A stretch of DNA of 33,842 nt from Actinomycetota bacterium (GTDB lineage Bacteria; Actinomycetota; Acidimicrobiia; Acidimicrobiales; CADCSY01), in the NCBI GenBank assembly GCA_004366205.1, contig SIRW01000092.1, positions 1 through 33,842 of the forward strand, given 5' to 3'. The notes below the pieces were generated by a model. That model did no database searches, had not been told where the DNA came from, and was given only the letters and a program-made list of their open reading frames with translations. Positions 13,533 to 30,731 of the stretch are shown here, in pieces; the stretch's first letter is position 1; each line of letters opens with the position of its first letter. Position numbers and translations under genes: made by a program.

Positions 13533-14666
13533 TCACTGCTCCGTGTCGGTCGGGGGGGTGTCGGTGGACGCGTCGCCGCCCGTGGCGGTGGCGGCGTGGG
13601 TGTCGGGCGTGGGCACCTCGACGCGGGGCTCGTCGGCGGCGGGCACCGCTCCCTGCTCGGGCTCGGCCTCGTCGGCCCCCACACCGGGCGCCGCCCGGGC
13701 GGCGTCGACGCCCGTGCCGGTCGCCTCGCCGGGATCGGCGCCGTAGGCCCCGGTCTCGGGCGTCGAGGGCGGCGCCGGGGCCTCGGCGTCGGCGACGCGC
13801 TCCTGGGTGGTGGCGGACTGCTGGCCGCTGGCCCCGCCGGCGGCGAGGCGGGCCTCCCGCTCGGCCGCCTGGGCGGCGGCCTGGGCCCGGGCCTCGGCCT
13901 GACGCTGCTCCCACGCCGCCTGCTCCTCGGGACTGCGGGCGGCGGGCGCCGGGGCGGCGGCCGCGGCCCCCCGCTTGGAGGCGATGAAGCGGCCCTCCTT
14001 CACGGCCTCGGCCATGACCCGGCACATGAGGTTGGCCGAGCGGATGGCGTCGTCGTTGCCGGGGATCACGTAGTCGATGAGGTCGGGGTCGCAGTTCGTG
14101 TCGACCACGGCGACGATCGGGATCTTGAGCTTGTTCGCCTCGGTGACGGCGATGTGCTCCTTCTTGGTGTCGATGATGAACACGGCGTCGGGCTGGCGCT
14201 GCATGTCGGTGATGCCGCCCAGGTTGCGCTGGAGCTTCTCGAGCTCGCGCGAGAGGATCAGCGCCTCCTTCTTGGGCATGGCGTCGAAGTCCCCGGCGGC
14301 CTTCATGCGCTCGTACTCGTGCATCTTCTCGACGCGCGAGTGGATCGTGGCGAAGTTGGTGAGCATGCCGCCGAGCCAGCGCTCGTTGACGTAGGGCATG
14401 CCACATGACGTGGCCGCCCGGGCGATCGGCTCCTGGGCCTGCTTCTTGGTGCCGATGAAGAGCAGGGTCCCACCGCCGGCGACCGTGTCGCGCACGAAGG
14501 TGTAGGCCTCCTCGATCCGAGCCAGCGTCTGCTGCAGATCGATGATGTAGATCCCCGCCCGCTCCCCGTAGATGAAGCGCTTCATCTTCGGGTTCCAGCG
14601 CCGGGTCTGGTGGCCGAAGTGGACCCCGGCCTCCAGCAGCTGCTTCATGGTGACGACCGCGGCCAT
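13533..14666 (-). CDS. rpsB: 30S ribosomal protein S2 with long disordered C-terminal tail
   Basis: Ribosomal protein of the small subunit. 377 residues from ATG at 14666, with GGAAAGGAG spaced as a Shine-Dalgarno; an in-frame ATG 15 codons upstream has no such site. The S2 core is residues 1-230: [72 protein letters not shown] and [20 protein letters not shown]. Residues about 231-377 are an Ala/Glu/Pro/Thr-rich low-complexity tail (first a charged Ala/Gln/Arg/Glu helix-prone stretch, then acidic Pro/Thr/Asp), far longer than in most bacteria. It heads rpsB-tsf-pyrH-frr. Confidence 0.96.
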
Positions 14667-14773
14667 GCGGTGCTCCTTTCCCATCGGTTCGGTCGGGCCC
14701 GGCGCGCGCACCTCCGAGTGGAGGCGACCGTGGGTGGCGCCGGGCCGTGGTCGGGACGGACCCCGGCTGGGGC

Positions 14774-16489
14774 TCAGGGGAGTGTAGCGGTGGGCCGCCG
14801 CAGCCGGCGAGCGAGGGCGGGCGCCGCCTGGGGCCCGGCGGCGATGGCGAGCCCGGCGACGGCACCGGCGAGGAGGACCGCCGCCACCGCCGCGGGGGCG
14901 GTGCGACCGAATGGCGCCGGCGCAGTGGGCTCGAAGGCGGCGGGCGGCGGCACGGGGGGCGCGGGCCGGGCCTCGTGGCCCGCGCCGACGGCAGCCGCGG
15001 CGGCCACCTGCACGTCCTCGGCGGGGACGGCGACCGCGGCGTGGCGCACCCGACCGGCGCCGGCGTCGGCCAGCACGCTGAGCTCGGTTCCCGGCCGCCG
15101 GAGCGCGCCCGCCAGCTCGAAGTGGTGGTCGCCCGCCCCGAGGAGGCCGTGGTGCACGACCGCCCCGTCGGGCCCCGTGACGGCGACGAGCGCCGGCGCG
15201 CCGGTGCGCACCAGGAGGTGGAGCGGCTCGCCGGGCCGCGGCACAGCCGGGTGCAGGCCCAGCACCGCCACCTCGGGCACGCCGGCCTGATCGGCGGGTG
15301 GCCGAACCTGCACGCCACCGGGCACGGGGCGCACCTCCCAGCGGCCGTGGGCCACGTGCGCGAGCACGACGCCGTCGTCGGCCAGGACCCGGAAGGCGCC
15401 GGTGCCGCTGATCGTCGCGGCCGGGCGGTCGAGGGCGACGGCGACGCTGATCGAGGCCGGAAGCCGCTCTGGCGGCAGCGCGACGGGCCGGAGGCCGCCG
15501 TAGTAGGAGGCCAGGATGTCAGGCGCGGCCATGCCGCGGCGGGCCTTGCCCATGGCGCCGTACTGGCTCATGCCGATGTTGTGGCCATAGCCCTCGCCGG
15601 TGACCACGACGGTGCCGCCCTCCTCGGTGTGCACCGAGTAGCGGTACGAGAGGACGGCTACGGGCAGTCCCGGGTTGGGCGGCAGGGCGCGGTTCACGGC
15701 GCTGCGGAACGGGATGAGCCCGAACCCGTGCTCGTGCTGCGCGCCGTCGTCGTCCTGGGTGGTGATGACCACCAGCCCGTCCCGGGTCCGGGCGTCGACG
15801 GGATGACCGGGCACGCCAGCGGCGGCGGCGACGTGACCGAGGGGCAGCACCGACCGCCAGCGGGCCCAGGGGCTGACGGCGAGGTCGTCGGGGTCCTCGA
15901 CAGCCGGCAGGTACGGCGCCCCGCCGGCGTGGGAGCGCCCCCCGTTGCTCGAGCCGTACATGGCCCGGATGAGGCGGTCCTGGTACAGCAGGACCTGCCC
16001 GGCGGTCTCCTCCACCGCCCGGGCCCACAGGCCGGTCTGGTCGCGGCGCTCGCCGGCGAGCCCCCGGTAGACCTGACATGCCTGGGTCGCGCAGATGTCG
16101 GCGCCCGCGGCCCGGAAGGCGCCGGGGCTGGGCGTGCGCTGCTGCCAGAGGGCGTAGGTGCGGGCGGCGATGGCCTGGGCCTTCTGCGCTTCGAGAGGCC
16201 AGCGGGTGGGTACCTCGGCGATGCCCCGCACGTAGTCCTCGACCGCCACGTCGTTCACGACGGCCACGCCCACGCCGCTGCGACCGACCTCGATGGCGCC
16301 GCGGTAGTCGCCGACGGCGTCGACGCTCAGGTGGCCCGAGAGCGGCTCGAAGCGCACCCTCGGCACCGTCCAGCCCGAGCCCTCGGCCGCCGCCGCGGGC
16401 GCGCCGGTGCCGCCGGCGCCGAGCAGCGCCGAGGCGAGTGCTGCGAGCGCCAGGAGCGCCGCGCCGGTCGTCCGCCCGATCCGTCCCAC
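14774..16489 (-). CDS. Exported SpoIID/LytB-domain protein with C-terminal membrane anchor
   Basis: SpoIID-type proteins are peptidoglycan lytic enzymes or amidase enhancers acting on denuded glycans. With GTG at 16489 it is 571 residues: a signal peptide ([20 protein letters not shown] ending at AAAA, about residue 35), then the SpoIID domain (about 45-350) with [12 protein letters not shown], where E92 aligns with the Glu catalytic in Bacillus Spo[32 protein letters not shown] and [14 protein letters not shown] long Pro/Ala/Val-rich region follows, then a hydrophobic segment at about 532-551 and a basic tail (ARRLRRPT), a likely C-terminal anchor. GTG at 16546 is an alternative start that lengthens the signal peptide n-region. 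Neither start has a clear Shine-Dalgarno. It lies between rpsB and the degenerate LytM fusion; the frame upstream of the start runs through the 72-bp repeats and is judged non-coding. Confidence 0.85.
14781..14786 (-). promoter_or_regulatory. Candidate -10 box TACACT for the rpsB operon
   Basis: TACACT (TANNNT) overlaps the last codons of the SpoIID-like gene. A start about 7 nt downstream would give a leader of about 105 nt before rpsB, which holds a small CCTCC/GGAGG inverted repeat (about 14712-14725). No -35 is seen. Confidence 0.35.
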
Positions 16490-16628
16490 GGCGCGCAGAT
16501 GCTTGCAGGTCGTCCCCTCGCGCCGCCAGTCCCCGGTCGCGTGCACAGCGTCGGGTGTCGACACGCCCCGCGCCCGACCTGAACGCTCGCCCGGCTGCCA
16601 CACCCCCCCACCCGGCCCGGCGCCGGCA

Positions 16629-16842
16629 CCGCACGGCTTTCCGGACCCCGCGCGCCCACATACGACGTCCACCGTCCGCAAAGCGGCGGGCCGCCGGCCC
16701 CCGCACGGCTTTCCGGACCCCGCGCGCCCACATACGACGTCCACCGCCCGGAAAGCGGCGGGCCGCCAGCCCCCGCACGGCTTTCCGGACCCCGCGCGCC
16801 CACATACGACGTCCACCGTCCGCAAAGCGGCGGGCCGCCGGC
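16629..16842. repeat. Three 72-bp tandem repeats, each with an imperfect inverted repeat
   Basis: Copies start at 16629, 16701 and 16773, each beginning CCGCACGGCTTTCCGGACCC and ending in a GGCGGGCCGCCGGC-like stretch. Copies 1 and 3 are almost identical; copy 2 differs at a few bases, reading CCCGGAAAGC where the others have TCCGCAAAGC. Within each copy GGCTTTCCGGAC pairs imperfectly with the GTCCGCAAAGC (or GCCCGGAAAGC) arm around a loop of about 25 nt holding a GACGTC palindrome. The repeats fill most of the 380-bp gap between the two cell-wall genes (16490-16869). Outside them, 16490-16628 and 16843-16869 show nothing I can name. The unit is a multiple of three, so frames stay open through it, but the signal peptide begins downstream, which argues against coding. 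Confidence 0.92.
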
Positions 16843-16869: not shown

Positions 16870-18708
16870 TCACCGGCGCTCGTGCGGAAGGGGGACCGTG
16901 GGGGTGAGGGCTGCGCCGGAGCGGAGGCCGGCGCCCAGGATGGCAGCGCCAGCCCCGTCCTGCACGAGGGCGATGCGGTGGGCCACGACGGCGCTGGTCA
17001 GGGCCTCGAGGGCGCGGCGGCACCCCGGTGGGCGGCCGGCGAGCGCCAGGGCCACCTCCCGCTGCACCGCGGGGTCGGTGGTCATGCGGTCATGGGCGCG
17101 GGCGCCGCCGAGCGGGACGACGACGTTCGTGGCGCCGTCGACCCGGCTGCGCAGGGCGGGCACGACCAGGTCGCCCGACACCGCGATCGAGGTCAGCGGG
17201 ATGTGGTCGGGCACCGGCGCCCGGCTGAGCTCGCGCACGAGCGGGGACGTCTCGGCGAGCTGCTGCACGGCGGGCCGGGTGGGATCGGCCGTGCCGCCGC
17301 TGAGCCGGCCGAGTCCCAGGGCCGCGAGCTGCCCGGGTGTGCCCGAGGTGGCCAGCGCGACGCCGGCCGTCGCCAGGTTGGCGCCCTCGTGGGGCGACCC
17401 CAGCGTCACCACGGCGCTGATCTCCGGGAGGGTGGGATCGAGCGGACCCGCACCGGCCAGGGCGAGGCGGGTCACGACGCCGCCCTGGGAGTGGGCGACG
17501 ACGTCGACGGGCACGCCCGGGTGGGCGTGGCGGATCGCCTCGAGCAGGTCGCGCACGTGGGCCGCCGACGCCCGGAGGTCACCGGTGGAGTCTGCGGCCG
17601 TGTAGTCCCGGACCGGCACGCCGGTGAGGGCGCCCACCCCCGGGACCCGGCCCCCGCGGTAGGACGCCTGCACCACGTCTGCGGGGTCGTAGCCCAGGGC
17701 CTCGGCGTCCACACCGAGCACCGCCGCCTTCCCGCCCGCGGAGCCCAGGCCACCGACCAGCACGAGGATTCGGCGGCCGTCCCGGGGGGGCACCGGCTCG
17801 GTGGCGGGCGTGCAGTCCCCACGTGCGGTCCACCAGTCCCAGGCGGCGGCCAGCGTGGCGACGGCGCCCGCCGCCGGGTCGACGGCTCGTGCGTAGTGGA
17901 CGGCGAGGAGGGCGAGGCGGAGCCGGTCGTGGAGGTCGTCGAGGGCGTAGCGCGCCGAGGTGGCGGCCGCGGCGCGCAGCCACTCCCCCGCGGCCGACCC
18001 GGCGGCCCACCCCGCCCCGACCAGGGCCCCGCCCGCGGCCCGCCCGGCGTGGCGGAGGGCGCGCACCAGCCCGGCGCGCTCCTCGACGGCCGGCAGCGGC
18101 CCCCGCCCCTCGTGGGGAACGAGGTGGACGTGCCAGCGGCTTCCGCTGAGGAGGAGGGCGGGGTCGAGGTATGCGTCGCCGGCCCGGGCTCCGAAGTGCA
18201 GGGCGCCGGCGGTGGCGCCGACCACCTGCCCGGCGGACACCTCGTCACCCCGCCGGACGGTGGTCTCGGCCAGGAACGAGTAGCTGGTACGGATGCCGTC
18301 GGCGTGGAGCACCACCACGTGGCGGCTGGTGCCGATCTGACCGGCGAAGGTGACCACCCCGGGGGCGGCCGCCCGCACCGGGTGCCCCGGCGCCGTGGCG
18401 TAGTCGATGCCCCGGTTGCCGGGCCCGTAGGGGTGCGCCGGAGGCCGGAACGGGTCGACGAGCGCGGCGTCGACCGGCGCTTCGTAGCGGACGAGGTCGC
18501 CGGCGGCAGCCACGGGCGCCGCCAGCGGAACGGCCGTGACGAGCACCACCATGGCCACGAACAGGCCGGTGCCGCCGGGCCATCGGGTCGGTGCCGGCAG
18601 CGACGGGGCCGTCCCGCCGTCGTGCACCTGCGAGGAGCGGTGCGGACCACCCGGATGGTGGGGCGCGGCGGGATCGGAACGGGCGGGACGGGGGCGCTCG
18701 GAGCGCAC
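16870..18708 (-). CDS. Exported fusion: degenerate LytM/M23 domain plus alpha/beta-hydrolase (lipase-like)
   Basis: 612 residues from GTG at 18708 (GAGGGGG upstream). A membrane/signal segment lies at about 47-70 (GLFVAMVVLVTAVPLAAPVA). Residues about 75-185 follow the LytM/M23 pattern (NRGIDYATAPGHPVRAAAPG, VRRGDEVSAGQVVGATAGAL) but lack most zinc/catalytic histidines: the HxxxD His is N98 (D102 kept), the YxHL His is F145, and the first His of HxH is A169 (H171 kept). A helical linker follows, then an alpha/beta hydrolase (about 310-560) with nucleophile motif AHSQGG (S407) and plausible partners D513 (SGDLVVP) and H539 (GARAHD). GSPHEGANLA is typical of lipases/PGAP1-like hydrolases. In many actinobacteria an M23 gene sits near rpsB; the fusion and the loss of ligands are the unusual points. 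Likely a non-catalytic wall-binding module carrying an active esterase (inference). Confidence 0.85.
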   Translation of the reverse strand: MRSERPRPARSDPAAPHHPGGPHRSSQVHDGGTAPSLPAPTRWPGGTGLFVAMVVLVTAVPLAAPVAAAGDLVRYEAPVDAALVDPFRPPAHPYGPGNRGIDYATAPGHPVRAAAPGVVTFAGQIGTSRHVVVLHADGIRTSYSFLAETTVRRGDEVSAGQVVGATAGALHFGARAGDAYLDPALLLSGSRWHVHLVPHEGRGPLPAVEERAGLVRALRHAGRAAGGALVGAGWAAGSAAGEWLRAAAATSARYALDDLHDRLRLALLAVHYARAVDPAAGAVATLAAAWDWWTARGDCTPATEPVPPRDGRRILVLVGGLGSAGGKAAVLGVDAEALGYDPADVVQASYRGGRVPGVGALTGVPVRDYTAADSTGDLRASAAHVRDLLEAIRHAHPGVPVDVVAHSQGGVVTRLALAGAGPLDPTLPEISAVVTLGSPHEGANLATAGVALATSGTPGQLAALGLGRLSGGTADPTRPAVQQLAETSPLVRELSRAPVPDHIPLTSIAVSGDLVVPALRSRVDGATNVVVPLGGARAHDRMTTDPAVQREVALALAGRPPGCRRALEALTSAVVAHRIALVQDGAGAAILGAGLRSGAALTPTVPLPHERR

Positions 18709-18788: not shown

Positions 18789-19568
18789 TCAGGCGGGCTC
18801 GCGCTCGGAGGCGGCCAGCTTCGAGCGCAGGTGGATCACCGACTTGGTGTGGATCTGGCACACCCGGCTCTCGGTGACGCCGAGGACCTCGCCGATCTCG
18901 GCGAGCGTGAGGCCCTCGTAGTAGTAGAGCGTGAGGACGATCTTCTCGCGCTCGGGCAGCCGGTTGATGGCGTCGGCGAGGATCTGGCGCATCTCCTCGA
19001 CCTCGTAAGCCGCCATGGGCCCCGCGCCCGTGTCGGCGATGGTGTCCCCGAGGGTCATGGCGTCGCCGCGGTCGCCGCCGCCGAGCATCTCGTCGAGGGC
19101 GACGAGACCGACGAAGGAGATCTGGCTGAGGGTCGACTGCAACTGGTCGACGGACATGTCGACCTCGGCGGCGAGCTCGGCGTCGGTGGGGCTGCGGTGC
19201 AGCTCGCCTTCCAGCTTGGCGTAGGCGCGCTCGATGGCGCGGGCCTTGGAGCGTACCGACCGGGGAACCCAGTCGATGGAGCGCAGCTCGTCGAGGATGG
19301 CGCCTTTGATGCGGGCGATGGCGTAAGTCTCGAACTTGAACCCCCGCTCCGGCTCGAACTTGTCGATGGCGTCGATGAGCCCGAAGATCCCGTAGCTGAC
19401 CAGGTCGGCCTGCTCGACGTTCTGCGGCAGGCCGACGGCGACACGACCGGCGACGTACTTGACGAGCGGCGAGTAGTGGACGATCAGCTGGTCGCGGACC
19501 GACGGATCGCCGGTCTGCTTGTAGCGAGACCAGAGCCGGTCGATCTCCGCTTGGTCATCGACTGTCAC
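18789..19568 (-). CDS. whiG: RNA polymerase sigma factor, FliA/WhiG family
   Basis: Group 3 sigma factor; in Streptomyces WhiG starts sporulation of aerial hyphae, while relatives in motile bacteria drive flagellar genes. 259 residues from GTG at 19568. Region 2: [20 protein letters not shown] and [20 protein letters not shown], then [18 protein letters not shown]. Region 3 is about 125-190. Region 4: [20 protein letters not shown] then [20 protein letters not shown]. Length and order are complete. It overlaps xerC by 14 bp and is followed by the exported LytM-lipase and SpoIID-like genes. No flagellar gene is in the window, so the WhiG-versus-FliA role cannot be decided here; the symbol follows the actinobacterial locus. 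Confidence 0.9.
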
Positions 19569-30545: not shown

Positions 30546-30731
30546 CCGTTCTGGGTGGCCCCTGTCACACGAGCGCGAGACCACGCCCACCCAGAACGGG
30601 AGGCACGCCGTTCTGGGTTGCCCCCGTCTCACCAGCGCGAGACCACGCCCACCCAGAACGGGAGGCACGCCGTTCTGGGTTGCCCCCGTCTCACGTGCGC
30701 GAGATGGGCCCCACCCAGAACCGGATGGGGA
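30546..30731. repeat. Three 62-bp tandem palindromic repeats
   Basis: Units begin at 30546, 30608 and 30670. Each reads CCGTTCTGGGT, a short C-rich spacer, a GTCTC..GAGA-like inner inverted repeat, then ACCCAGAACGG as the outer right arm. The outer arms form an 11-bp stem, and TCTCAC / GCGAGA an inner, slightly mismatched stem. Copies 1 and 2 have intact outer arms; copy 3 has an extra C in the right arm (ACCCAGAACCGG) and a changed spacer (GATGGGCCCC). They occupy about half of the 359-bp divergent gap 30478-30836. The stretch 30732-30836 shows only the phosphoesterase Shine-Dalgarno; 30493-30545 is C-rich without visible signals. Confidence 0.92.

Follow-up and report, generated by a model that had tools for sequence, protein, structure and literature searches.

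Inactive LytM domains are known to regulate other cell wall hydrolases in Proteobacteria (PMC10336132, PMC8416486). In the degenerate LytM factors EnvC, NlpD, ActS and DipM, the LytM fold is kept and the zinc ligands are lost. In Actinomycetota, an M23-like protein is encoded beside rpsB and whiG, and we take its gene to be the Rv2891-type gene of mycobacteria. Rv2891 itself is listed among three M23 genes of M. tuberculosis whose function is unknown (PMC8594824).

The protein described here, from the acidimicrobial order Acidimicrobiales, resembles each of these systems in part. Like EnvC, NlpD, ActS and DipM it has a LytM fold with lost zinc ligands, but unlike them it has no recognised LysM domain or coiled coil, carries a lipase domain and is actinobacterial; a regulatory role would be assigned by analogy. 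It shares its locus and an orthologous LytM domain with the rpsB/whiG-adjacent M23-like protein of other Actinomycetota, which is usually without a hydrolase and mostly keeps its His/Asp/His, whereas Acidimicrobiales have Asn98. SpoIIQ of endospore formers is a LytM homologue by profile (3tuf, 3uz0), and a SpoIID-domain gene adjoins the fusion gene, but SpoIIQ has no lipase. The hydrolase half is like the Streptomyces lipase 5h6g, B. subtilis LipA (1isp), CALB (1tca) and B. licheniformis BlEst2 (6wpy) in fold (Z ~18-20) and triad order, although it is only ~18-27% identical to these lipases, and they have no LytM domain. Each half is already known, and the literature searched does not describe the two in combination. 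Searches for a LytM-lipase fusion, for LytM in Acidimicrobiia and for DUF7379 returned nothing relevant there (domain-architecture databases may list the fusion), and the words lipase and esterase are absent from an M23 review that surveys more than 1,000 domain architectures (PMC9662197).

Results

Gene, locus and protein architecture

The window (the whole stretch of DNA analysed, 33,842 nucleotides) carries, on one strand, nusA, a proS-type synthetase gene, ispG, an M50 protease gene, dxr, cdsA, frr and a pyrH-type kinase gene, followed by tsf, rpsB, a SpoIID-domain gene, the fusion gene and whiG, and beyond whiG by a xerC-type integrase gene, dprA and a ComM-type gene (Table 1). The 612-codon fusion ORF, read from 18708 to 16870, starts with GTG, just 5' of which lies a purine-rich GAGGGGG. 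Between the fusion and SpoIID genes there is a 72-bp tandem repeat (16621-16842; 3.1 copies, 94% identity). Another, of 62 bp, occupies 30546-30725 (2.9 copies); its unit starts with CCGTTCTGGGT and also contains the inverted complement, ACCCAGAACGG.

Table 1. Features of the fusion gene, its product and the neighbouring genes
Feature	Position	Strand	Evidence
rpsB ORF (ribosomal protein S2), syntenic marker	13533..14711	-	PF00318 2e-100
SpoIID-domain protein, downstream neighbour, start approximate	14774..16489	-	PF08486 4e-23, TIGR02669 3e-47
LytM-lipase fusion gene, 612-aa product	16870..18708	-	ORF; order-wide orthologues
Hydrophobic N-terminal segment, residues 48-64, signal-peptide-like or membrane anchor	18517..18567	-	Sequence; helix 47-59 in model, low confidence here
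Degenerate LytM/M23 domain, residues 75-191	18136..18486	-	PF01551 2e-16; model; structure matches
Asn98, first zinc-ligand His position	18415..18417	-	N in 66/67 fusions with a letter, 27/27 LytM-only rows
Asp102, second zinc-ligand position, mostly Glu in relatives	18403..18405	-	Alignments
Phe145, YxHL histidine position	18274..18276	-	His in 0/69 fusions
Ala169-Leu-His171, HxH remnant with last His only	18196..18204	-	H171 68/69; His169 3/69
Variable helical linker, residues 205-298	17815..18096	-	Mean conservation 0.28; pLDDT low until ~275
Lipase-type alpha/beta-hydrolase domain, residues 299-565	17014..17814	-	Pfam, model, structure matches
Cys299, invariant, domain start	17812..17814	-	69/69
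Ser407, nucleophile in AHSQGG	17488..17490	-	68/68 in-frame rows
Asp513, triad acid	17170..17172	-	69/69
His539, triad base	17092..17094	-	69/69
Cys563, invariant, domain end	17020..17022	-	68/68
C-terminal helix, residues 566-596	16921..17013	-	AlphaFold model
whiG/fliA-family sigma factor, immediate upstream neighbour	18789..19568	-	NF004935 4e-116; adjoins in most orthologous loci

From its N-terminus, the protein consists of a long Arg/Pro-rich region, a hydrophobic segment, the LytM/M23 domain, the variable helical linker and the alpha/beta-hydrolase. Judging from the hydrophobic segment around residues 48-64, it is apparently exported. An AlphaFold model built from a 21-sequence alignment has a mean pLDDT of 76.9; both domains lie mostly at 85-98 and superpose on LytM/M23 and lipase structures, and the low-confidence regions are the N-terminus and the linker. 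The initial annotation had read this protein as a degenerate LytM domain joined to an intact lipase-like hydrolase, and Pfam, the model and 69 distinct fusion loci agree with it; the residues that it numbered (N98, D102, F145, A169, H171, S407, D513 and H539) are all correct. We also considered a chance ORF or a misassembly and rejected it, as the continuous two-domain frame recurs in those 69 loci across many assemblies.

The order xerC-whiG-X-rpsB is held in relatives, X standing for the fusion in some of them and for a LytM-only protein in others, and the fusion gene lies between whiG and rpsB, the position that defines the rpsB-adjacent actinobacterial M23-like orthologue group. Since other lineages have an unfused LytM protein at this very spot, the fusion is the rpsB-adjacent M23-like orthologue of Actinomycetota with a lipase attached. 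In a subset of Acidimicrobiales (the window, L011, L012, L014, L015, L018, L036, L039, L045 and L052), a SpoIID-domain gene stands between the LytM gene and rpsB, and this SpoIID/degenerate-LytM neighbourhood resembles sporulation genes.

The LytM domain

By both fold and profile, the N-terminal domain belongs to the M23/LytM superfamily. Peptidase_M23 (PF01551) matches residues 98-183 (E 2e-16; 60.3 bits against a Pfam cut-off of 28.7), and residues ~65-191 of the model align with Csd3, DipM, EnvC and ShyA at VIA-align Z scores of 17-19 (~17-18 for DipM 7qrl and for EnvC 8c0j and 4bh5). The LytM domains of DipM, EnvC, ShyA and others are among the Foldseek matches in the PDB, M23/LytM-type structures are among the named top matches listed from a viral structure library, and a plasmid search gave weak M23 matches only. 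The best NCBIfam models for the protein are those of DipM, ActS and NlpD, at 29-36 bits against cut-offs of 311-900, which is far below the equivalog level. Model confidence is ~84-97 over most of the domain and falls to 65 at residues 91-100.

Active M23 endopeptidases carry HxxxD and HxH; here Asn98, Phe145 and Ala169 stand in place of histidine, family-wide. The replacements that the initial annotation had pointed out in one protein are therefore conserved in its homologues (Table 1), and the zinc site is lost and conserved in its lost form, as in a degenerate LytM factor. By its residues, the LytM half should be incapable of acting as a zinc peptidase. The claim that D102 and H171 remain holds for this protein, and His171 is nearly invariant, but position 102 is unconserved: Glu is found in 39 and Asp in 22 of 67 fusions of the extended set, and the set found without motif patterns has 13 Asp, 7 Glu and 1 Ala. 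What is conserved forms a groove made of GNRG, His171, Arg175 and Tyr180-x-Asp-Pro.

The possibility that the LytM histidines are kept at shifted positions was rejected from the alignment, in which no Acidimicrobiales fusion has His at 98 or 145 and only 3 close relatives, the Microthrix group, have it at 169. His130 and His135 are conserved, but they lie in an HVVVLH strand, off the ligand positions. These Microthrix-group fusions (L016, L050 and L054) retain HxH despite degenerate positions 98 and 145.

The hydrolase domain

Pfam alpha/beta-hydrolase models (DUF7379, PGAP1 and Lipase_2) match weakly around residues 365-450. Among 14 hydrolase domains of the family, DUF7379, DUF676 and PGAP1 match 13, 11 and 9, respectively; the matches to these hydrolases are weak, partial and placed mainly at the nucleophile elbow. 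In structure, residues ~310-565 align with PlaB, 5h6g, CALB and BlEst2 at VIA-align Z ~20, and the top Foldseek match of the fusion model in the PDB is the Streptomyces lipase 5h6g. In the model, Ser407 sits at a strand-helix elbow between strand 401-406 and helix 408-416, Asp513 follows strand 505-510 and His539 follows strand 527-531, the nucleophile-acid-base order of a lipase-type alpha/beta-hydrolase fold. The triad that had been proposed from a single protein is thus in canonical order, and it is invariant over the 69 fusion loci apart from one frameshifted copy (L021), which has the lone Thr at position 407 (Ser407 in 68/69). The oxyanion motif is GGLGS, as against the commoner HGxG. 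The C-terminal hydrolase should be a catalytically competent lipase/esterase. DSSP marks residues 300 and 562 of the model each as a single bridge residue, so that the invariant Cys299 and Cys563 are apparently neighbours, and a disulfide between them probably clasps the hydrolase domain.

Conservation within the order

A motif-free protein search of 59 relatives gave matches in 41 genomes. Across the 21 full-length fusions aligned, Asn98, His171, Cys299, Ser407, Asp513, His539 and Cys563 are invariant and Phe145 nearly so. The set was then enlarged with named genomes, mostly Acidimicrobiia MAGs and including Candidatus Microthrix parvicella RN1 and the isolate EGI L10123, to 69 distinct fusion loci in total, 51 of them mutually <60% identical. 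One of the two patterns used in the enlarged search, GNRG[ILV][DE]Y, is biased toward Asn98 and Asp/Glu102; in the pattern-free set Asn98 is present in 21/21. Among the 51 rows <60% identical, conservation reaches ≥97% at 36 of 527 positions, which include Gly97-Asn98-Arg99-Gly100, His171 and the whole triad. Both domains are under purifying selection: comparison of 14 close pairs gave dN/dS values of 0.06-0.35 in LytM and 0.14-0.54 in the hydrolase. The signature foreseen in the initial annotation, a conserved loss of ligands beside a conserved Ser/Asp/His triad, is what the family displays, with neither shifted LytM histidines nor an inconsistent triad among the homologues.

Distribution and evolution in the phylum

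A LytM profile search over 396 genomes of the phylum was combined with inspection of the loci. Outside Acidimicrobiales, the usual sequence of the whiG/rpsB-adjacent orthologue is GHRG[IV]D ... LH[WF]G, which mostly keeps the zinc ligands (His, Asp and last His) and has lost the YxHL His and the first HxH His. The losses at 145 and 169 are therefore older and phylum-wide, whereas Asn98 is nearly confined to Acidimicrobiales and requires 5 changes when mapped on a LytM tree of 161 rows (a short alignment with many weak branches). The three histidine losses, which had been treated together, were not a single event. On the same tree, likewise to be read in view of its short alignment and many weak branches, the fused/unfused label changes about 19 times, from which it follows that the hydrolase was lost or gained many times.

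Homologous fusions with invariant Ser/Asp/His occur in other lineages of the phylum, outside the class (7 sequences, mostly at the whiG/rpsB locus), where model and fold match, and a further fusion family lies away from this locus. In another actinobacterial family (L171:2087-4108 and L172), LytM is fused to Abhydrolase_8 (PF06259, 5e-32), possibly an independent invention of the same pairing. One fusion outside Acidimicrobiales (L123/L158, genome G089) reads GNRGLD; its Asn in place of the first ligand is apparently of independent origin. In the LytM proteins L161-L169, HxxxD and HxH are intact (GGHAGIDI or GGHQGxDI, and HLHF), and a long hydrophobic C-terminal region follows that apparently spans the membrane several times.

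Discussion

Based on these results, we propose, with somewhat better than even confidence, that the fusion is an envelope protein of two working parts, a pseudo-enzyme LytM adaptor and a lipase/esterase, that keeps ester hydrolysis where wall work takes place. The N-terminal LytM domain would be a fixed pseudo-enzyme that should not hold catalytic zinc; position 98 is fixed as Asn and has not drifted, which counts for this reading. Its conserved groove would most likely bind peptidoglycan or a wall-hydrolase partner, by analogy with EnvC and DipM, and the domain may keep an ancestral role as adaptor or activator of wall hydrolases. Partner hydrolases are available in the fusion-bearing genome, which has one Amidase_3 match and roughly a dozen M23 domains. 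The C-terminal lipase/esterase would be held by the LytM half at sites of wall work, and its candidate substrates are envelope phospholipids, lipoglycans, lipoproteins and captured exogenous lipids or triglyceride. Some points count against this proposal: the oxyanion motif is GGLGS, the linker is poorly modelled, the fold alone leaves the substrate unfixed and, because LytM-only orthologues exist, the two parts need not cooperate.

These orthologues also bear on the targeting model of the initial annotation, in which LytM serves only to anchor a nutritional lipase to peptidoglycan and so present it at the cell surface. The fusion itself and its export-like N-terminus fit such a model, as does the presence of a fusion (L050) in Microthrix parvicella, which a work cited by PMC11495043 describes in its title as a specialised lipid consumer. 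A LytM-only protein, however, occupies the locus in up to 27 distinct rows, an upper bound because some are truncated by contig ends (e.g., L082), and within the locus none of the 27 has a separate hydrolase match (a few perhaps ending at contig edges). Two single-contig genomes (G013 and G017) and a complete Aquihabitans chromosome (L098) are among these cases, and a mere anchor should not outlast its cargo. Persistence of the same degenerate domain, with the same fixed Asn, in many relatives that lack the hydrolase at this locus says that LytM has a role of its own. We therefore consider the anchor-only model unlikely; targeting is one version of holding hydrolysis at the wall, but too simple a one.

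LytM may instead regulate the lipase in cis, its groove gating the active site until contact with peptidoglycan or an autolysin turns ester hydrolysis on. A conserved groove and a conserved lipase do share one chain, and inactive LytM domains relieve the autoinhibition of partner amidases (PMC9662197). The long linker, however, is variable and modelled with low confidence, and the model offers no reliable inter-domain interface, which makes such gating decidedly improbable. The fuller scheme, in which a peptidoglycan-sensing pseudo-peptidase switches on a covalently attached lipase and so couples wall remodelling with membrane or lipoglycan ester hydrolysis, has in our judgement a low probability. 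Two independent functions that merely share a secreted polypeptide and are repeatedly separated would suit the ~19 label changes and the LytM-only genomes with no hydrolase homologue at E 1e-6 (G017, G045 and G050) or with distant ones only (G013 and G016), but this is very unlikely given that the fusion is held in 69 distinct loci with both domains constrained and recurs elsewhere in the phylum.

Degenerate LytM domains are known as adaptors for peptidoglycan cutters, and here one is joined to a presumed ester-cutting enzyme, and selection maintains both halves in Acidimicrobiales, a large and poorly studied order. For the role of each half, the LytM-only orthologues serve as a natural control. 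The pairing of the two in dozens of genomes suggests a fat- or ester-cutting activity that may be held at the bacterial cell wall. If our proposal of a two-part envelope protein is true, LytM factors would reach beyond wall hydrolysis to lipid and ester chemistry, and the fusion would offer a defined handle on the envelope biology of Acidimicrobiales, including the sludge-bulking Microthrix.
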